DNA from: a virus
IMG/VR virus record: IMGVR_UViG_3300030098_000384
Span: 2,707 to 28,664 of that record
DNA: 25,958 bases
Reading direction: 5' to 3' (one strand)
The translations under genes were made by a program, and so were the position numbers. Shown piece by piece: positions 72 through 21,616 of this stretch (position 1 is the stretch's first letter; every line of letters begins with the position of its first letter). The notes beneath the pieces were generated by a model. It ran no database searches, was not told the DNA's origin, and saw nothing but the letters and a program-made list of their open reading frames with translations.

Positions 72-2050
72 TGGCAAAATTTGCAGGATTTAAACCCGAA
101 GGCATGAGAAAAATAGCCAATAGAATGGGTTATCAAGGCTCTATGGATGACTTTGATAATTATTTACAACAAAACCCTGAAAAGAAAAGACAAATGATTG
201 TGTTTGAATCTATAGCTAAACAAATGGCTAAAGGTGGTGTTGTTAATATGCGTGTAGGTGGGGTTAATACACTACCACAACCAACAGGCACTCCTACTGG
301 ACTACCCACAAAACAAGACTTAGGTCAAGCAGATCCTAGACAATTACCACAAGCAGACGTACCCTCTCCACCTACACAATATACTCCTACTACTGGCATA
401 GGTGATGTTTTTACTGATAGAGCACAAAACCCTGCATTGCCTCAAGGTGGTGTAACTATACCTGTTGGAACACAGATAACACAAGATCAATTATTAAGTG
501 GTGACTTAGGACAACTATCGGGTACAGTCGGTGTGCCTACAACTGTAGCACCGACAACAACTGCTAATATACAGCAACAAAAAGATGCTAACATAACTTC
601 TGCAGAGAGGAGTGCTCCAGCAGTAGATAGTGCTTTGGCGGCAACTCAAGCGGCACAGACAACATTAGAAGACCCAAGAGCAAAAGTATTAGCAGCTCAA
701 CAAACAGCATCAAGCGTTGGTGATTTGAATGCTGCACAAGGTCAAGCCACATTATTACAAAATCCAGTACAAAGACAAATAGAGCAAGGTGAACTAGTAT
801 CATCTACTGCTAATGCAGAGACTGCATCTAAGTACACAGAGCAAATACAAGCGGCAACTGCAACACCAACAAGTCAAGCAACTGTTCAAGGACAGTTAGC
901 TAGTCTTACTGCAAACTTTGATGCCACTAACCCACCATCATGGGCGGCAGGTGCTATCAGAGGTGTACAAGCAGTGATGCAACAAAGAGGTTTGGGTGCA
1001 TCTAGTATTGCAGGTCAAGCATTAATACAAGCTGCCATAGAGTCAGCTTTACCTGTAGCACAAGCAGATGCTAGTGTATTTGCACAATTTGAGAATCAAA
1101 ACTTATCTAACAGACAACAACGTGCTATGTTAGCTGCTCAACAGAGAGCACAGTTTATTGGACAAGAGTTTGATCAAGCATTTCAAACAAGAGTGCAAAA
1201 TGCTGCAAAGGTTAGCGACATAGCTAATTTAAACTTTAATGCAGAACAACAGATAGCATTAGAAAATAGTCGTGCAACAAACACTATGAACTTAAATAAT
1301 CTATCGAATAGACAAGCTCTTGTATTGGCAGAAGCATCTGCACTAGCTAACTTAGATTCATCTAATTTAAATAATAGACAACAAGCCGCTGTGCAAAATG
1401 CACAATCATTTTTACAGCAAGACATGGCTAATTTAACAAATCAACAGCAGACAGAGTTATTTAAAGCACAGCAGAGAACACAAGCCTTGTTTACAGATCA
1501 AGCTGCTACAAATGCCGCTAATCAATTTAATGCAACATCGCAGAATCAAGTGGATCAGTTCTTCTCTAACTTAGCACAACAAGCATCACAGTTTAATGCG
1601 ACACAAGCTAATGCACAAGCTCAGTTTAATGCAGGTCAAGTGAATACAGTAGAGCGATTTAACGCAGAGATAAACAATCAACGTGATCAGTTTAATGCAC
1701 AGAATCAACTAGCAATAGCACAAAATAACGCAGTGTGGAGGAGAGAGATTGCAACAGCAGATACAGTCGCTGTAAATAGAGCAAATGAGTTGAATGCAAA
1801 CGCAGTTCTTGATATATCTAAAGAGGCATATGATAATCTATGGTCTCACTATAATGACACTATGGAGTGGGCATGGACATCTGCAGATAATCAGTTAGAC
1901 AGAATAAATCAATTAGCAGTCGCAGAATTAAGTGCAGACATTAAAAGAGAAACACAAAAAATGGCATCATCCTCTGCGGCAGGAAGTGCAGTAGGTAAAT
2001 TAATTGGTACATTGGGATCTGCTGCAATTACTCAAGGATTATTTGGATAA
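71..2050 (+). CDS. Q/N/A-rich virion protein with long hendecad-repeat helix (659 aa)
   Basis: Very rich in Gln, Ala and Asn. Three parts are visible. Residues 1-55 form a compact start (AGFKPEGMRKIANRMGYQG) of a type I recall from marine-phage tail proteins. Residues 65-170 are a Pro/Thr/Gln/Gly-rich linker. Residues about 180-625 look helical, with 11-residue repeats from about 345 to 543. The last 25 residues are small and hydrophobic (SSAAGSAVGKLIGTLGSAA). I infer a fibrous or internal virion component of a short-tailed phage; no enzyme motif is visible. It overlaps the upstream stop and the downstream start by one base each, so it is in the structural operon. It could be an internal core protein, a tail-tube or needle part, or an adaptor; the sequence alone does not decide. 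Confidence 0.75.
   Translation: MAKFAGFKPEGMRKIANRMGYQGSMDDFDNYLQQNPEKKRQMIVFESIAKQMAKGGVVNMRVGGVNTLPQPTGTPTGLPTKQDLGQADPRQLPQADVPSPPTQYTPTTGIGDVFTDRAQNPALPQGGVTIPVGTQITQDQLLSGDLGQLSGTVGVPTTVAPTTTANIQQQKDANITSAERSAPAVDSALAATQAAQTTLEDPRAKVLAAQQTASSVGDLNAAQGQATLLQNPVQRQIEQGELVSSTANAETASKYTEQIQAATATPTSQATVQGQLASLTANFDATNPPSWAAGAIRGVQAVMQQRGLGASSIAGQALIQAAIESALPVAQADASVFAQFENQNLSNRQQRAMLAAQQRAQFIGQEFDQAFQTRVQNAAKVSDIANLNFNAEQQIALENSRATNTMNLNNLSNRQALVLAEASALANLDSSNLNNRQQAAVQNAQSFLQQDMANLTNQQQTELFKAQQRTQALFTDQAATNAANQFNATSQNQVDQFFSNLAQQASQFNATQANAQAQFNAGQVNTVERFNAEINNQRDQFNAQNQLAIAQNNAVWRREIATADTVAVNRANELNANAVLDISKEAYDNLWSHYNDTMEWAWTSADNQLDRINQLAVAELSADIKRETQKMASSSAAGSAVGKLIGTLGSAAITQGLFG
1103..1699 (+). 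repeat. 11-residue (33-bp) coding repeats within the 659-aa protein
   Basis: Phe recurs at residues 486, 497, 508, 519, 530 and 541, exactly every 11 residues, mostly in the motif (Q/R)FNA. Upstream, Leu or Phe at 345, 389, 411, 433 and 455 are also multiples of 11 apart, in NLSNRQ, NFNAEQ, NLSNRQ, NLNNRQ and NLTNQQ. The two blocks are offset by 2 residues mod 11, and Phe464 already sits in the second register. Eleven-residue periodicity is typical of right-handed coiled coils. Confidence 0.85.
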
Positions 2051-2280
2051 TGATAACAAACCCAACACTACAAGTATTAAGTTCATTTCAAAAGTTAAAA
2101 ACACCTCAAACTGAGAGTAGGTCAAAAAGCATGGGTATGATGACTAGATCTAGACCCCCAATACAAAATATGTCAAATACAAAAAAACAACCCATGATGA
2201 TAGCAAGAGAAATACAGATGCATATTAGAAATGCTAACAAAACACAAAAGAACGGAGAAAGCGATGGAACAATCGTTTGA
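2050..2280 (+). CDS. Small basic hypothetical protein (76 aa)
   Basis: Starts on the ATG that shares its A with the upstream TAA (TAATG) and runs to 2280, overlapping the next gene by 17 bases. The product is basic and rich in Met, Lys, Arg, Ser and Thr (SKSMGMMTRSRPPIQNMS), with no hydrophobic segment and no motif I recognise. The ribosome site is weak (an AAGGA about 11 bases upstream), so coupling to the 659-aa gene is likely. Position in the structural operon suggests a minor virion or assembly protein, but this is only context. Confidence 0.55.
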   Translation: MITNPTLQVLSSFQKLKTPQTESRSKSMGMMTRSRPPIQNMSNTKKQPMMIAREIQMHIRNANKTQKNGESDGTIV

Positions 2281-2761
2281 TAGACCTATACCCGGAATGG
2301 GTATGACATTTGAGGTTGGCTCACGACCTTGGCAAACACCACCAGAACTAACCACTGTAGAACAAGCTACAGATTATTATATAGAGAGGATGAACACAGA
2401 TCAGTTCAAAGCTCAACTAACAGACGTTATGGAAATGGGTGTGCCTTTAGCTACATTAGCAAACACCATACAACTAGCGAGTGTTATGGAAGGTGTTCAT
2501 TCAGTTGATGTCGGCATATTAATGTTACCAATAATAGTAGAACTGTTAATGACAATAGCAGATTCTCAAGGGATTGATTACGATACTGGTATGGAAGGTA
2601 TGGAGAATGAAAGAGCTACCTCTGTAGATAGAACAATAAACACTATAATGAGGGAAAGAAATCTACCAAAAGAAGATGCACCCACTGAGGAGCAAAGAGC
2701 AGATGTAGAAGTAGAGGAGACACCCCAACCACCTATGGGGTTAATGGCTAGGAGACTTTAA
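2264..2761 (+). CDS. Conserved phage structural-arm protein (165 aa)
   Basis: I place the start at the ATG at 2264 because GGAG lies at 2254-2257; an in-frame ATG at 2231 has no such site. The protein begins MEQSFDRPIPGMGMTFEVG. The middle (about 45-100) is helical and partly hydrophobic (ILMLPIIVELLMTIADSQG) and the C-terminal third is acidic, ending in PPMGLMARRL. I recall similar unnamed proteins (a PIPGM-type start, a DVMEMGVPL-type middle, a short GLMARR tail) in marine phage structural operons. The function is unknown. It directly abuts the next gene. Confidence 0.75.
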   Translation: MEQSFDRPIPGMGMTFEVGSRPWQTPPELTTVEQATDYYIERMNTDQFKAQLTDVMEMGVPLATLANTIQLASVMEGVHSVDVGILMLPIIVELLMTIADSQGIDYDTGMEGMENERATSVDRTINTIMRERNLPKEDAPTEEQRADVEVEETPQPPMGLMARRL

Positions 2762-4177
2762 ATGTTAGGTAAATTTTTTGGATCTGAATTTGGAAAAGGT
2801 CTTGTGGCTGGAGCCGCAGAGGGTTTTGCTGAAGGATTTCAAGACGATATAGATAGAACAAAAGATAATGTAGATAGGCTAGTATTAGAATCCTACAAAG
2901 GTGGTGTTGAGCAAAAGAAAAAGTATGATGCTGTATTTAAAGATAATCAAAAGATAGTTGAACAAATAGCTGGTAATTTAGGGGGAGATGATGGAATTAA
3001 TCATCCAATGGCTTTAGAGGCGGCATACGGATTAATAAACACTGCTGGTGGATTACAAAATGCTTTAGATGAGTCAGTGAACGCAAAAGCATTTTTTAAT
3101 AGATATGGAGTACATCCCACAAAACAATTAGAGTTATCCGTTATAAAAAACAGAGAAACACCTTTGACAGTTTCAAGTATTACTAAAACTACTGTTCCCA
3201 AAATGACTATACTTGACCCTAAAATTTTAGGTGACTCTGCGGCAGTTGGTATTATGAAAACTAATTTATTAGGTAGTGATTATGATCCGTCAAAAGAAAT
3301 AAGTAAGAGAGCCGCTGCTTTGCTTACAGCTAGAGGGATAGACATCAATCAAGGTGAAATGAAGATACCTATTGCGTCTAAAGTGACATTAGATCCATTA
3401 ATAAGAGGTATGCAAACAGATCCCGTTGCTGAAATAGCTAGACTTCAAGTCTTTGGTAATAAATTAGACCCTAAAGATCCTGACTTTGTACAAAAATTTA
3501 ACAGAGTTAAAGACATGATTGATGTGCAAGTAGAAGTTGCTACAGCAACAGCAAAAACTCAAGCGAGCATACTAGATGAGGCTAAAATAGGAAAAGGTTT
3601 ATCTATTTCTGCTCTTGGGTCTGCAAAAAATCAAATCACAAATCAAATAATAGAAAGTTTTAATGTTGTTGCAAAAAAAGATAGCACGGGATTATATATG
3701 ACCCAAGATCTTGTACAAGAAAAACAAAAAATAATAACCGATACAATGGCATATTACTTAAAAATGTTAAATTTAGGAGTAACAAATAAAGATGATCAAT
3801 CCTTTTTTAAAGTAATAGAAGCAATAAACAACAATAAAAAGTTGTCTTTGACTGATGGAAAGTTAGTAATGTTAAATGGAGAAGGATCTACCAACGTATC
3901 TACAAGAGATGTAGATACTTTAAAACAAGGAAGTAAAAAAATAGATGATCCTTTTAATTTAAATAAAAAACAACCCATTGATTATAGTAAAATTGATCAA
4001 AACGCTTTAATATCGTCAATAAGAAAACAAGGGATAAATACAATAAATGGGCAGAGGTTACTTAACACATTAAAAGGTAAGATAAACTTTGACAACCCTC
4101 CTGAATTACAAGGATTAATAGGTAAAGCTAAAGTTAACAAGATTGAAGAGTTAGCACGAGAGTTAGTCAAAAGGTAG
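2762..4177 (+). CDS. Probable internal or ejection virion protein (471 aa)
   Basis: Begins immediately after the preceding stop codon. Residues 1-30 carry small-residue repeats in a possibly amphipathic helix (GKGLVAGAAEGFAEGFQDD), a pattern seen in membrane-active or pore-forming segments. The rest is charged and mixed helical, with a Lys-rich C-terminus (ELARELVKR). No catalytic motif is visible. Its place just before an 1144-aa protein with Gly/Ala-rich segments, at the end of the structural arm, resembles the set of internal virion proteins that podoviruses eject with their DNA. The role is inferred from context only. Confidence 0.65.
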   Translation: MLGKFFGSEFGKGLVAGAAEGFAEGFQDDIDRTKDNVDRLVLESYKGGVEQKKKYDAVFKDNQKIVEQIAGNLGGDDGINHPMALEAAYGLINTAGGLQNALDESVNAKAFFNRYGVHPTKQLELSVIKNRETPLTVSSITKTTVPKMTILDPKILGDSAAVGIMKTNLLGSDYDPSKEISKRAAALLTARGIDINQGEMKIPIASKVTLDPLIRGMQTDPVAEIARLQVFGNKLDPKDPDFVQKFNRVKDMIDVQVEVATATAKTQASILDEAKIGKGLSISALGSAKNQITNQIIESFNVVAKKDSTGLYMTQDLVQEKQKIITDTMAYYLKMLNLGVTNKDDQSFFKVIEAINNNKKLSLTDGKLVMLNGEGSTNVSTRDVDTLKQGSKKIDDPFNLNKKQPIDYSKIDQNALISSIRKQGINTINGQRLLNTLKGKINFDNPPELQGLIGKAKVNKIEELARELVKR

Positions 4178-11504: not shown

Positions 11505-12238
11505 ATTTGACTAGCATCTTGTTTTGCCTTGTGTGACCACATCCAAGAGTCAACATTTGGAAAGAATAAAGAAGCAATATAGTGTTTGTCTTCACTTAGT
11601 GATAATAGTTTTTGTATACTAAATGCCACTGTTTGCAGTTGTTTTTTATGCAACGACAAATTTTTAAGATTAAATTTTTTGTGCATTTTAGGTGACGCAA
11701 AAAACAAATCTACTTTCTTCTTTGGGTATGCCATAGAATACAAAGCCATCTGTCTCATCTGTGCCTCTGTAGGCTTTGATGGCATCCTTGTCGTTGTTTT
11801 CAAATCCACTATTGTATCTTTAAATAAAAAATCTATGTAACCAATAATTGGTATGGGCAAGTCATCAAACTGTACCTCTACCTTTTGTTGATAGCTTTCT
11901 AAATTTTTATATTTAAAATTTTCATCTAACACTTCACCAAAACTAGCTAAAGTGTTACGTTCTTTTTTTACCTTCTCATCATTTAAATCAATACCAGCTT
12001 CGCCACAAAGACCAATAAACTTAGTATCAAGTTCTAAAAAATCAAAAGAACCTTTTTCATATTTCTGTGCTAACACATGCTCTTGTGCAATACCACGAAT
12101 AGCACCAGCACCACTATCTGATCTAATGCCAAATAAGTATCTCATAATCCATTGTGGTGGATCTGTGATGTAGGTGTTGATGCTACTTGGGGATAAGTAG
12201 TTTATATTGTGTACCCGAAATGGGTTGTTGGAAATCAC
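11489..12238 (-). CDS. RecB/Cas4-like PD-(D/E)XK exonuclease (249 aa)
   Basis: The motifs run in the order of the RecB-type nuclease family: LSPSSINTYITDPPQW at 15-30, a conserved His54 (QEH), GYID with Asp136, VDLK with Asp145 and Lys147, then the QMALY (QxxxY) motif at 163-167. It lacks the four cysteines that hold the iron-sulfur cluster in Cas4 and AddB. It is likely the phage's DNA-degrading or recombination exonuclease, filling the place of T7 gp6, though it is unrelated in sequence as far as I can see. The start is GTG, overlapping the upstream stop (GTGA). It sits between the presumed ssDNA-binding protein and endonuclease I. Confidence 0.87.
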   Translation of the reverse strand: MISNNPFRVHNINYLSPSSINTYITDPPQWIMRYLFGIRSDSGAGAIRGIAQEHVLAQKYEKGSFDFLELDTKFIGLCGEAGIDLNDEKVKKERNTLASFGEVLDENFKYKNLESYQQKVEVQFDDLPIPIIGYIDFLFKDTIVDLKTTTRMPSKPTEAQMRQMALYSMAYPKKKVDLFFASPKMHKKFNLKNLSLHKKQLQTVAFSIQKLLSLSEDKHYIASLFFPNVDSWMWSHKAKQDASQIWSLK

Positions 12239-13164
12239 TGTACTTCTTCTGTGTCAATATCAATGAAACCCTCTATTACTTCTTGATCAGCTTCACTAAC
12301 ATCGCCTTGTCTTTTCTGCACGTTAGTATCCCACTCTTTACAAACCCAATCGTTAAAACCTTTTATAAACATGCTAAACTCACCAAAAAGTTTTTTATCC
12401 TCATCATTAATTTCAAATGACTCCGTATAATCAACCTCAACTATAGGTGTGTAAAAAGAACTGCCATTAGGCAATTGATTGGCATGTGTTCCATTTAAAT
12501 GCATTGCATGTTGAATTGGTAGTCTAGACTTCTCTGATAACTCTGAGAATAGATCACCAAATGTTTTAAAAGCATCCTTGTTGTCAACTTCCCAAATGAA
12601 AGGAGAATCTGAAAAGTTTTCAACAGGGACACCTTTTTCATCTACGGGATCTTCCATAGATACTGTTCCAAAGAGCACTCGTACTCGTTTGATTTGTCTA
12701 ATTAAATCTTGTGTGCTTTTGGGCAAGGCTTGAAAATCCTCAACATAACCTGAAGGCTTACCACAGTTGAACCGACCTGTGTTATCTTTCAAATCAATAT
12801 TAAGGCTATCAGCCATGATGGTTCTGTGGAAAGAGCCTTTTTTCTCTCCACCTTTAGCACCCTGATTAGCAACATATCTTTTGAGCATGAAACGCTGCAT
12901 GAAAGGTCTGATGGTAATATTCTTGGAAAAAATGTAAAAAGAAGAATCTTCACTTACGACTTCAAGTCTATAAGCTCCACCCTCAATAACTTCTACGTTT
13001 GTGGGTTTACCATTAACCTCAACCTTACCCATAATAGGTGAGTGCCAAATTCTTAATCTGTTAAGTGTGCTAGTTTTCTTGGGTGCTTTTTTCTCTGTAG
13101 CCATTCCCATTGCTCTAGCCAAATCATCGTAATTATCTACGTTTATATTTGCTAATTCGCTCAT
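12235..13164 (-). CDS. Probable single-stranded DNA-binding protein (309 aa)
   Basis: Not recognised from a sequence signature; the assignment rests on several cues. The gene lies between polymerase and recombination nuclease, where T7-like phages keep ssDNA-binding proteins (T7 gp2.5). The body is strand-rich with basic and aromatic stretches (FMQRFMLKRYVANQGAKGG), and the end is strongly acidic (DQEVIEGFIDIDTEEVQ), as in gp2.5 and bacterial SSB, whose tails recruit partners. AAGGAGT precedes the ATG at ideal spacing, and a near-consensus promoter lies just upstream. It is longer than gp2.5 (about 230 aa). It could instead be a recombination mediator. Confidence 0.6.
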   Translation of the reverse strand: MSELANINVDNYDDLARAMGMATEKKAPKKTSTLNRLRIWHSPIMGKVEVNGKPTNVEVIEGGAYRLEVVSEDSSFYIFSKNITIRPFMQRFMLKRYVANQGAKGGEKKGSFHRTIMADSLNIDLKDNTGRFNCGKPSGYVEDFQALPKSTQDLIRQIKRVRVLFGTVSMEDPVDEKGVPVENFSDSPFIWEVDNKDAFKTFGDLFSELSEKSRLPIQHAMHLNGTHANQLPNGSSFYTPIVEVDYTESFEINDEDKKLFGEFSMFIKGFNDWVCKEWDTNVQKRQGDVSEADQEVIEGFIDIDTEEVQ

Positions 13165-13188: not shown

Positions 13189-13217
13189 GTTATATCAAGA
13201 GACATCTTTAGTGTCAA
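13189..13217 (-). promoter_or_regulatory. Sigma-70-type promoter for the SSB-like gene
   Basis: On the minus strand, TTGACA (13212-13217) is followed after exactly 17 bases by TATAAC (13189-13194), 6/6 and 5/6 matches to consensus. The -35 lies in the last codons of the polymerase gene and the -10 in the 30-base gap before the next gene, followed by AAGGAG and ATG at 13164. It would give the SSB-like protein and downstream genes a host-polymerase promoter independent of the upstream operon. Confidence 0.65.
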
Positions 13218-15222
13218 GCCAGTTGTCCCCCATCTTTGCTTCTAATAGCAAAGGTACATTAAAATCAATACCATATGTTGAATCAATAATCTGTTTCATA
13301 TTTTTATTTGTATTATTAATTATGTCAATCACAATATTTTCTTCATTGGGATGTACATCAATTACAATGGAATCATGTACTGTGTTCACAATGCATGATT
13401 TAAAATCTTGTAGCTGATCATCAATAGCCAACAAAACTAAAGGCACAATATCAGCAGTGGCAAAACTTTGTACTGGGTAGTTTTTTATTTGAGTAAAATG
13501 AGACACACCACCGTTTGTTCTTCTTTTAACATCCGGGAATGAAAACTCTCTACCCGAAGGTATTCTAATCTTCTGTGTGTTTAAAGCCTCTTTAGCCAAT
13601 CGGGTATGCCATAGTGCGATTTCTTTGTACTTTTTTGTAAACTGTTCGTAATATTTTGCTTCAGAAGTCGTTCTCCCAAATCCTGTTGCTCCGTAGAGAG
13701 GGGCAAAGGTGTGAGCTTTTGCTTCTTGCCTACTAATCTTTTGACCTGATTCCGTAATGACACTAGCAGTGTACGCATGAACGTCAAAGCCATCTTCTAT
13801 CTCCTTCATTGCTATTTTGTCTTGTGATAAAAATGCTGCAGTTCTAAACTCCAACTGTGCAAAATCTGCCTCTAAAATCTTTCCACCTTGCCATCTAGAA
13901 ACAAATACTTTTTTAACAGGGAATGTACCACCTCTAGGCATGTTTTGCATATTAGGATCAGCACCACTAAATCTTCCTGTTGATGTTCTGTGTTGTAAAA
14001 GTCTTACATGTAACATTCCATCTTCCTTAGTATGAATTTTTATACCCTCTACAAAAGAAGATAGATATGTATCTAGTGCCGACAGTCTTTGTATATCAGT
14101 CAAAAAGTTAAATGCAGGCACACTGTCGTTTCTCTTTGTGACATGTTGTAATACCTCCAACATCTTTTTGTTAACACTAAAACCATTGGCACTTACCCAT
14201 TTTACATTTGGTGGGTTAAATTTAAATCCTGCTATTTTTCCCACAGAAATAAAAGAATAGCCATTCCCATTGCAATCAGGGCATTTAGGTAATCGAGCAT
14301 AAAGAGTTCCATCCTTCTTCACCTTTCTTAATAAGCCTGAACCAATGCAAGTCCTACATTTCTGTGCTTTTGTTTTGTAAACTATGTCTGTGTTATCTTT
14401 TATAGTTTGATTAAAACTTGTCTTCTCCATTGCATATGCAAAGTTATTCATCCATGTGGATTTGTCTTTTGGTTTTCTACTATACAAAATCCATGACATC
14501 TGTTCAGGACTATTTAAATTTATAGGAGTATCACCCATAAGTTCCTTTACTTGTGTCTGTAGTCTTTGTTCTATTTCACTTTTTTCTTTTTGAAATTCTA
14601 ATTGTACGGATTCAAGTGTATCAACATCCACCTTGAATCCTCTCTTATATATCTTAGCCAATGCCACTGATACTTTGTTTGTAAATAATACAGTGTTCAA
14701 TAACCCAGCATCTTTTGGTGTATTCAATCTATAATATTGTTTGTCACTTAGTTGTTGTGTAGCACGTAGATCTGCAGAAAGATAACTAGAGAGTTCTGCT
14801 CTAGGTATTTCATCTGTGGCAAAACCTTGAGCAAAATAATTTTTGAGGGTATCTTCTTTCTTTGTCTCTAAGTCATATCTCTCTGCACAATCTTTTAGGT
14901 GCAAAGGTTCTTTCATGCCACGTTGCAAAACATACTCTGTTAGCATTGTACAAAATATAGGACCTTCATATTTAAACCCTGATTCCCAAAGCCACATGAG
15001 ATCGTAAGCTATGTTATGTCCGATTAGGATAGTAGCTTTGTCTAACAACTCTTGAATAGTTACATCATAGTTGTTTGCCCTATCCATATTAAATAAATAC
15101 TCGTTGCCTTGATCATCTAAGCATCCCACCATAACCAACTTGTTTGATGGCTCAAACGGATCTAGGTGCATCTTGCCATCTCTTTTTGTTACAGTGTTCT
15201 CTACATCTACTACTAACTTCAT
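13195..15222 (-). CDS. Family-A DNA polymerase with DnaJ-type zinc-finger insert (675 aa)
   Basis: Replicative polymerase. The proofreading exonuclease is complete: Asp6/Glu8 (VDVEN), Asp74 (HNIAYD), and Tyr147 with Asp151 (YLSAD). Polymerase motif A has Asp453 (ADFAQLEFR), motif B runs from Arg498 through Lys502 and Phe506 to LYG at 509-511, and motif C has VHDS with Asp617. Phe506 matches E. coli Pol I Phe762. The usual Glu after HD in motif C is Ser618. Between the domains, CRTCIGSG (289-296) and CPDCNGNG (314-321) form half of a DnaJ-type zinc centre, a trait I recall from HMO-2011-like marine phages. The ATG overlaps the upstream stop (ATGA). It works with the separate primase and helicase encoded just upstream. 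Confidence 0.97.
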   Translation of the reverse strand: MKLVVDVENTVTKRDGKMHLDPFEPSNKLVMVGCLDDQGNEYLFNMDRANNYDVTIQELLDKATILIGHNIAYDLMWLWESGFKYEGPIFCTMLTEYVLQRGMKEPLHLKDCAERYDLETKKEDTLKNYFAQGFATDEIPRAELSSYLSADLRATQQLSDKQYYRLNTPKDAGLLNTVLFTNKVSVALAKIYKRGFKVDVDTLESVQLEFQKEKSEIEQRLQTQVKELMGDTPINLNSPEQMSWILYSRKPKDKSTWMNNFAYAMEKTSFNQTIKDNTDIVYKTKAQKCRTCIGSGLLRKVKKDGTLYARLPKCPDCNGNGYSFISVGKIAGFKFNPPNVKWVSANGFSVNKKMLEVLQHVTKRNDSVPAFNFLTDIQRLSALDTYLSSFVEGIKIHTKEDGMLHVRLLQHRTSTGRFSGADPNMQNMPRGGTFPVKKVFVSRWQGGKILEADFAQLEFRTAAFLSQDKIAMKEIEDGFDVHAYTASVITESGQKISRQEAKAHTFAPLYGATGFGRTTSEAKYYEQFTKKYKEIALWHTRLAKEALNTQKIRIPSGREFSFPDVKRRTNGGVSHFTQIKNYPVQSFATADIVPLVLLAIDDQLQDFKSCIVNTVHDSIVIDVHPNEENIVIDIINNTNKNMKQIIDSTYGIDFNVPLLLEAKMGDNWLDTKDVS

Positions 15223-19820: not shown

Positions 19821-20023
19821 AGAAATTTCTCCCATACTGCCTTTATAAATACAAATAAACCATAGACATGTAGCAAAATAACTACCGTCTTCAGAACTTT
19901 GTTCATTTGGTCATCTGCCATATATACCCAATCTTGGTATTTCTTTTCTTTTGGTGAGATGTATGCTTTCATTCCTACATAATCAAAGTTCCAAGCATCT
20001 CGCCTAGTATCTTTTTTAGTCAT
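19817..20023 (-). CDS. Single-helix membrane protein, holin candidate (68 aa)
   Basis: About 42 polar residues followed by one C-terminal transmembrane helix (about 44-62, including VVILLHVYGLFVFIKAVW). ATG at 20021-20023 overlaps the cell-wall hydrolase stop by eight bases; the downstream exported-protein gene overlaps it in turn. The hydrolase has no signal peptide, so a pore-forming partner is expected, and this is the nearest membrane protein. The holin call is inference: size and context fit, but most holins have more helices or an N-terminal helix. Confidence 0.65.
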   Translation of the reverse strand: MTKKDTRRDAWNFDYVGMKAYISPKEKKYQDWVYMADDQMNKVLKTVVILLHVYGLFVFIKAVWEKFL

Positions 20024-20444
20024 GCTTTTCCCACCTATAAAATATGTGATCGTCTATTCTAGTTACATACGTCTTAGTCTCTGCCCAACTAGGATTAACA
20101 TAGTAGGCATGATAATGTGTAGCACCCTCAACAAAGTCATCTAGATGTCCATTATACACACCGTTAGCAACATGCATAGCAGTCTCCATAGCTTTCTTTT
20201 GTTTAGGTTTATCACTTTTCCCATCACAATACCAGCTAAATTGACATTTATTTTTTATTGGTAACGATGGTTTCCACTTATATGTTAAGCCTTGCTTGAC
20301 TACATCGCAGACATTGTTGGGATACCTAGGATCTTTGACCCTATTCATCACAACTTGTGCAACTGCCACTTGCCCAATGAAACTTTGATTCTTAGCTTCG
20401 TGGTACACATTAAGTGCTAGACACATTAACGATTCCATTAACAT
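20016..20444 (-). CDS. SleB-type cell-wall hydrolase (probable endolysin, 142 aa)
   Basis: Matches the Hydrolase_2/SleB family, which cleaves peptidoglycan glycan strands. The pattern VYHEAKNQSFIGQVAVAQVV holds the presumed catalytic Glu16; further family features are VVMNRV, CQFSWYCDG (67-75) and ATHYHAYYV (108-116). Length is normal for the single catalytic domain with no binding domain. The start is the ATG overlapping the methyltransferase stop (TAATG), with AAAGGA eight bases upstream; an in-frame start 45 bases earlier would lie inside the methyltransferase. No signal peptide, so release through a holin is expected. Its place between a methyltransferase and the DUF932/integrase genes, far from the structural arm, is unusual. 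Confidence 0.9.
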   Translation of the reverse strand: MLMESLMCLALNVYHEAKNQSFIGQVAVAQVVMNRVKDPRYPNNVCDVVKQGLTYKWKPSLPIKNKCQFSWYCDGKSDKPKQKKAMETAMHVANGVYNGHLDDFVEGATHYHAYYVNPSWAETKTYVTRIDDHIFYRWEKHD

Positions 20445-21616
20445 TATTTTATTCCTTTCAATATATGTGCTATGACATCTACAGTCCAACCATTCCCAAT
20501 CATCTTGTATCTCTGAGTATTGGAAACACCTTCTGTGTAGTTGTCAGGCAAGGTTTGTAATCTCTCACACTCTAGTGGTGTAAGTTTTCGGTACAAGAAG
20601 TCTTCGCCTACCACCACATTATCTTTCTGTACTGTGGTAAGACAGTTGGACTTTGCACCATCGCTAACCTCAAGTTGCGTAGTGAATGGCAACTCTAGTT
20701 GGTTATCTTTTCTAGTCCCATGCTCATCAAGCCTACGATTAACAATGCGACCAATGGCAACCTTTGGTTGTCTGTGTCCACCTTGCATAGTCGTAAGGGT
20801 AGGTGACTTACCTTGAGGTGAATACACTCTCTTGATAATATCAAACCCCTTGATGTCATTAGCAACACCTACTTGTATAGGCTTCTTGCTTTTGACAAAC
20901 GTAGGTATCTGCCCCTTGTACATAGATGCAGTAAGACAATGTGCCTTATCATCATCAACAGACTTGACTAGATCTCCTCGCACTCTGCCACACCATGTAC
21001 CCTTGAGGTAGTTGGGTGCTTCATCAAATGGCAAGTCCTCTAGTATATCAGATAGAACAATACCTTTGTCTTGTGGTTGTGTGACGTTAGGTATGTTAGT
21101 CCAATACAATCTGTTACGATTCTGTGCTGACATGAGGGCAGAGTTGATTGCAATAGGCTCAACACCTAGAGCATTCGTAATCACATCTTGTGACTCTTTC
21201 TTCATACGTACATTCTCCAACAAGAACTTTACTTGTGGTTTACCCAACTGTGCCTTTCTCGTATTGATATTATTGACGATCCTAATAAACTCAAAGAATA
21301 ATTTGCTGCGAGGATCATCAAAATTAAGTTGTCTACCCGCAAAAGAAAAACCTTGGCAAGGTGATCCTGCAAGTATCAAGTCTATATTTGTAGCCATCAT
21401 CTCTAGTAGACAATCATCCTTGACTCTATCCATAGGAATACCCCTCATGATATCGGTTACATCTCCTACATGCACAATATCCGGGAAGTTTTTCTTAGCT
21501 ACCTCAATGGCATACTTGTCAATCTCTGATGCAAAGTAATTCTTTACCTTGATGTCAGCACGTTGCAAGGCTAACTGCCCACAACTCATGCCATCAAATA
21601 AACTTAGTACATTCAT
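20444..21616 (-). CDS. DNA (cytosine-5) methyltransferase (390 aa)
   Basis: Methylates carbon 5 of cytosine in a target sequence that cannot be read from the gene. Motif I is LSLFDGMSCG (4-13), motif IV GSPCQGFSF with nucleophile Cys87, motif VI LENV (133-136), motif VIII QNRNRLYW (165-172), motif IX the LTPLECERLQTLPDNYT segment (345-361), and motif X GNGWTVDVI (374-382). The target-recognition region contains three similar short segments, noted separately. No restriction enzyme gene is adjacent, so it is a solitary enzyme, commonly read as protection against host restriction or gene regulation. Overlaps its upstream neighbour by four bases and the hydrolase by one. Confidence 0.96.
   Translation of the reverse strand: MNVLSLFDGMSCGQLALQRADIKVKNYFASEIDKYAIEVAKKNFPDIVHVGDVTDIMRGIPMDRVKDDCLLEMMATNIDLILAGSPCQGFSFAGRQLNFDDPRSKLFFEFIRIVNNINTRKAQLGKPQVKFLLENVRMKKESQDVITNALGVEPIAINSALMSAQNRNRLYWTNIPNVTQPQDKGIVLSDILEDLPFDEAPNYLKGTWCGRVRGDLVKSVDDDKAHCLTASMYKGQIPTFVKSKKPIQVGVANDIKGFDIIKRVYSPQGKSPTLTTMQGGHRQPKVAIGRIVNRRLDEHGTRKDNQLELPFTTQLEVSDGAKSNCLTTVQKDNVVVGEDFLYRKLTPLECERLQTLPDNYTEGVSNTQRYKMIGNGWTVDVIAHILKGIK

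Follow-up and report, generated by a model that had tools for sequence, protein, structure and literature searches.

The window analysed here is a 25,958-nt stretch of viral DNA (positions 2,707 to 28,664 of the 28,664-base IMG/VR record IMGVR_UViG_3300030098_000384) that carries the gene of a marine phage DNA polymerase with a cysteine-rich insert. The question raised by this locus is whether the insert occupies the place of the thioredoxin-binding loop of T7 DNA polymerase, as the initial annotation had proposed, and what it might contribute to the polymerase.

Polymerase gene and cysteine-rich arm

The ORF at 13195..15222 (minus strand, as are the other features of the window given below) encodes a protein of 675 aa with 3'-5' exonuclease, thumb, palm and fingers domains. 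Pfam searching detected DNA_pol_A (E = 5.8e-51) and DNA_pol_A_exo1 (E = 2.9e-7), and the nearest annotated relative was the polymerase of Puniceispirillum phage HMO-2011, with 63.5% identity over 100% of the length. Possessing both an exonuclease domain and a partial DnaJ domain of two motifs, the protein is, as judged from its sequence, a family A polymerase of the HMO-2011 type. The polymerases of HMO-2011, CRP-1/2/3 and HTVC033P, as described in the polymerase passages of PMC9038755 and PMC6918029, have the same domain order and the two-CxxCxGxG insert, at 35-64% identity. Residues D6, E8, D74, D151, D453 and H616-D617 were invariant in 57 HMO-type sequences. The invariant D453 (13864..13866) is the catalytic Asp of motif A, confirming the initial annotation, which had also given 475 correctly for its T7 counterpart. 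Residue 506 (13705-13707), aligned with Phe762 of E. coli Pol I, is an invariant Phe in the family. Elsewhere in the window, a C-5 cytosine DNA methylase gene (20444-21616) overlaps a cell wall hydrolase gene (20016-20489).

The two CxxCxGxG units were found at residues 289-296 and 314-321, that is, in the 289-321 interval and within 14235-14380 as first annotated. A pair of such units within 40 residues did not occur in any of 20,000 shuffles of the polymerase protein. Knuckle 1, CRTCIGSG (14335..14358), had both Cys and both Gly invariant; in knuckle 2, CPDCNGNG (14260..14283), C317 and G321 were invariant. In an alignment of 236 relatives, C289, C292 and C317 were found in every sequence, and Cys occupied position 314 in 231, with Asp replacing it in 4 and His in 1. 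This pattern of Cys, Asp and His is consistent with what a metal ligand would show, and from the sequences we infer that the four-Cys site binds a metal, most likely zinc. The relatives with C314D (L016, L025, L030 and L035) or C314H (L071) retain the other three Cys and are natural variants useful for probing the site. In AlphaFold2 models, both of the full polymerase and of the insert alone, the knuckles were enclosed by a two-strand stalk (residues 282-288 and 322-330), forming an arm of about 50 residues (282-330; 14233..14379) within a thumb insert of about 85-100 residues.

Between the knuckles lies a hairpin, LLRKVKKDGTLYARLPK (297-313; 14284..14334), which had the highest family-mean positive charge of all 17-residue segments and is family-wide the most basic such stretch of the entire polymerase. 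Lys and Arg made up 35% of it across the family, versus 12.5% elsewhere in the polymerase, and its net charge was between +4 and +11 in all of the 62 representatives. Positions K300, K302 and K303 were mostly Lys or Arg across the relatives, and in the CRP-738 subgroup the hairpin was longer and richer in these residues.

Position of the insert relative to the T7 loop

An AlphaFold2 model of the polymerase was obtained from 57 sequences (mean pLDDT 89.5, pTM 0.80), and Klenow fragment, having neither the HMO-type insert nor the T7 loop, served as the neutral reference for profile alignments. The thumb helices are called H, H1 and H2, after the usual naming in T7 and Klenow. As delimited by the model and the profile alignments, helix H spans residues 200-229 (14536..14625). 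This long helix is followed in the model by a short helix at 239-247 (H1), the insert, a helix at 352-364 (H2; 14131..14169) and another at 368-397. Helix H1 together with the preceding INLNSP motif covers residues 234-247 (14482..14523), and N235 and S238 of the motif were invariant in 57 diverse HMO-type sequences. The INLNSP segment (from residue 234) matched FNPSSRDHI of T7 (from 334) and FNLSSTKQL of E. coli Pol I (from 578). The insert, bounded by the profile gap versus Klenow and by the model, spans residues 248-345 (14188..14481) and includes a helix at 267-277 in addition to the arm.

In the profile alignment of the HMO-type family with Klenow (E = 1.4e-56), INLNSPEQMSWIL (234-246) was placed on FNLSSTKQLQTIL, and the gap opened after this segment. 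In that of the T7 family with Klenow (E = 5.3e-23), FNPSSRDHIQKKL (334-346) was placed on the Klenow FNLSS/H1 segment, and the gap opened before it. Because the predicted helix order and the alignments with Klenow point to the same arrangement, the HMO-type insert is placed in the H1-H2 loop of the thumb, whereas the T7 loop is placed between H and H1. The initial annotation was to be abandoned if a predicted structure put the zinc unit outside the thumb, and on this point it was borne out by both the model and the alignments; its location of the unit at the thioredoxin-binding loop itself was one junction away. The distances to motif A on which this location relied are as stated (132 residues from 321 to 453, and 142 from 333 to 475 in T7), but since the insert follows H1 and the T7 loop precedes it, their similarity is a coincidence of neighbouring junctions in one subdomain, with unrelated sequences.

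The T7 gp5 loop resembles the HMO-type insert in being a thumb insert of about 75-100 residues near H1 in a phage family A polymerase. It differs in lying before H1, in having no Cys knuckles and in sequence, for profile comparison of the two with hhalign found no relation (probability 0.3%, E = 0.23). Thus, of the features that define the T7 thioredoxin-binding domain, neither the location between H and H1 nor the loop sequence was recognised in the insert. That the insert is a diverged form of this loop, binding host thioredoxin, appears extremely unlikely. Such a relationship would fit the comparable length and motif A distance, and direct global alignment of the HMO-type and T7 sequences does pair the inserts; however, this alignment sets T7 FNPSS on a non-conserved FNPPN and leaves the invariant N235/S238 motif unpaired. 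The direct pairing (MAFFT; hhalign global) was rejected as misleading on two grounds: each family has a confident alignment to Klenow, in which the gaps fall on opposite sides of the FNLSS/H1 segment, and H1 precedes the insert in the model. T7 uses host thioredoxin, so the lack of a thioredoxin gene in nine HMO-type phage records, one of them the record of the window, which is a fragment, does not decide the matter. As H-H1 and H1-H2 are neighbouring thumb junctions, the insert and the T7 loop are possibly near each other in space. The arm and the loop would be convergent in place, perhaps also in role, and not homologous.

Possible roles of the arm

Half-DnaJ zinc hairpin is the most fitting name for the module, given its motif and spacing. 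The Pfam DnaJ central domain matched the inserts of all 57 sequences (best E = 5.4e-7), the Q-like antiterminator family phrog_6060 matched 50 (best E = 5.9e-8), and the anti-TRAP profile matched 41. The spacing between knuckles was 25 in the 675-aa polymerase, compared with 26 in lambda Q (CRDCHGTG...CGRCKGVG), 23 in UvrA Zn3 (CEACQGDG...CDQCKGKR) and 22 between DnaJ repeats 2 and 3. Foldseek searching with the insert model returned DnaJA2, anti-TRAP, BSD2 and UvrA at E values of 0.1-2, with an rmsd of 1.2-1.4 A over about 35 residues for UvrA (E about 1), so that the fold assignment leans mainly on the motif; the whole polymerase returned generic family A polymerases only. Like the half-DnaJ hairpins of lambda Q, UvrA Zn3 and anti-TRAP, the HMO-type module has CxxC knuckles 22-26 apart with a hairpin between them and at least the first CxxCxGxG, and it differs in being inserted in a polymerase thumb and in its strongly basic hairpin. 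In UvrA, the Zn3 hairpin contributes to the contacts with DNA (PMC7835731), and a study cited there has also reported that the UvrA zinc finger regulates DNA binding without binding DNA directly.

The initial annotation had named a host chaperone among the possible partners, and the term partial DnaJ domain would suggest that the insert recruits the host DnaK/DnaJ machine to phage replication. We consider this very unlikely and rejected it as a leading idea, even though the DnaJ central domain is matched throughout and a passage of PMC9038755 recalls the role of DnaJ in lambda replication. The polymerase has two CxxCxGxG repeats versus four in E. coli DnaJ; neither the J domain with its HPD motif nor the four repeats and two zinc sites of a DnaJ (Hsp40) are present in it. 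Pfam and a motif check found no J domain or HPD in the polymerase, and none was found in the 9 phage records. The insert is not a DnaJ for these reasons, and the half unit also occurs in UvrA and lambda Q, neither of which is a co-chaperone.

A processivity or docking role, as first annotated, is plausible for a segment that is strongly basic, invariant and at the thumb tip. The reading we favour, at about an even chance, is that the insert forms a basic arm on the thumb, pinned by a metal, which holds on to the primer-template duplex and makes the enzyme more processive with no need of thioredoxin, as suggested by the sequences, the model and analogy with other polymerases. A metal, most likely zinc, would pin the arm, and the basic hairpin would rest against the backbone phosphates of newly synthesised primer-template duplex behind the active site. 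This contact would increase DNA affinity and processivity, so that the phage enzyme would contain within its own chain the function for which T7, at an adjacent site of the thumb, recruits thioredoxin. Neither an assay nor a structure with bound DNA was found in the literature for any HMO-type polymerase. A point against the DNA-grip reading is that a basic patch may also have an acidic protein tail as its ligand, as T7 illustrates.

Partner docking is accordingly its chief rival. The gene next after the polymerase (12235..13164) encodes a conserved 309-aa protein, a candidate SSB or replisome partner, and the arm might dock the acidic C-terminal tail of this protein, as the T7 loop binds gp2.5; we regard this as possible, though on the doubtful side. 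The tail, with a net charge of -5 to -11 in all of the relatives listed and often carrying an FIDV or FIDI motif, resembles SSB tails, and the SSB of T7 contacts the polymerase by its C-terminal tail, at the thioredoxin-binding domain (PMC7699545). However, no homology between the 309-aa protein and an SSB could be detected: searches of Pfam, PHROGs and PDB profiles and comparison with T7 gp2.5 gave no match, so its SSB identity, which could not be supported by sequence, is one we only infer. It may represent an unrecognised SSB family of HMO-2011-type phages. The phage helicase, whose C-terminus is not acidic, is on that account a less likely partner. By analogy with T7, gripping of DNA and docking of a partner could coexist. 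A combined form, in which a self-contained, metal-pinned processivity arm at H1-H2 takes over the function of the T7 thioredoxin, acting from the opposite side of H1, and doubles as the docking site for the acidic tail of a new SSB family encoded by the adjacent gene, is improbable in our estimate.

It is also rather unlikely that the arm does not itself hold DNA or a partner, the metal site serving only to stabilise the insert or the insert acting in primer shuttling, fidelity or strand displacement. Such a structural role would agree with the variable length of the insert (98 to 125 residues in the HMO-type family) and with the unrelated, knuckle-less inserts of similar size at the H1-H2 junction of Lullwater, JSF7 and R8W. 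Against it stands the basic hairpin, with K300, K302 and K303 conserved as mostly Lys or Arg beyond what metal binding needs.

Distribution and other thumb inserts

Published accounts of HMO-2011-type phages (PMC9038755, PMC6918029, in their passages on the polymerase) already give as a defining character a partial DnaJ domain that has two CXXCXGXG motifs and separates the exonuclease domain from the polymerase domain, in line with the DnaJ-like inserts mentioned in the initial annotation. Those passages make no thumb assignment and give no function beyond recalling DnaJ in lambda replication, and a search for literature joining HMO-2011 and thumb found none in the collection searched. The insert itself is therefore already known, and what is new with respect to these published accounts, as far as their polymerase passages go, is its exact position in the thumb, at the H1-H2 junction, and its candidate DNA-gripping role. 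HMO-2011-type phages are described in PMC9038755 as among the dominant marine virus groups. Their polymerase has so far been a marker without a mechanism. With the insert placed at H1-H2 and combining an invariant metal site with the enzyme's most basic stretch, a concrete, testable role can be given to it. A built-in processivity arm, if true, would be useful for engineering polymerases.

When the insert alone was used as the query against the phage collection, only HMO-2011-type phages were matched, plus one weak match to a phage DnaJ. Matches in bacterial genomes were to contigs of marine MAGs and single cells, probably mis-binned phage. Same-named HMO-type contigs (L423/L424 and L428/L429) occur in MAGs of both Flavobacteriales and Neomarinimicrobiota, which makes the MAG host labels unreliable.

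Phage family A polymerases thus carry unrelated inserts on either side of one thumb helix. The Autographiviridae phages R8W, Lullwater and JSF7 (L089, L091 and L095) have non-zinc inserts of similar or larger size at the H1-H2 junction, which lack Cys knuckles and are unrelated to the HMO-type insert in profile comparison (probability 0.6%). Pol nu/theta (Ins1) and plant organellar polymerases (insertion 1) also have inserts in the thumb, a likeness that holds by subdomain and not by exact loop. In the relevant portions of PMC13365964, PMC11080051 and PMC7699545, these inserts are linked to DNA binding or processivity: Ins1 at the thumb tip of Pol nu/theta touches DNA and is tied to processivity, and deletion of Ins1 from AtPolIB weakened DNA binding (both PMC13365964). 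Unlike for the HMO-type arm, no metal site is reported for them in the corresponding portions of PMC13365964 and PMC11080051.

In the Zobellviridae phages ICP2 (L083) and MEP402 (L084), the family A polymerase is split over separate ORFs: two in ICP2 (1453-3546) and, in MEP402 (1492-3603), a pair of polymerase ORFs separated by a small one. Stenotrophomonas phage StenR_269 (L088) carries a gene annotated as a thioredoxin domain protein (1-160) just upstream of its family A polymerase (360-2204), and this protein is possibly a phage-borne processivity factor.
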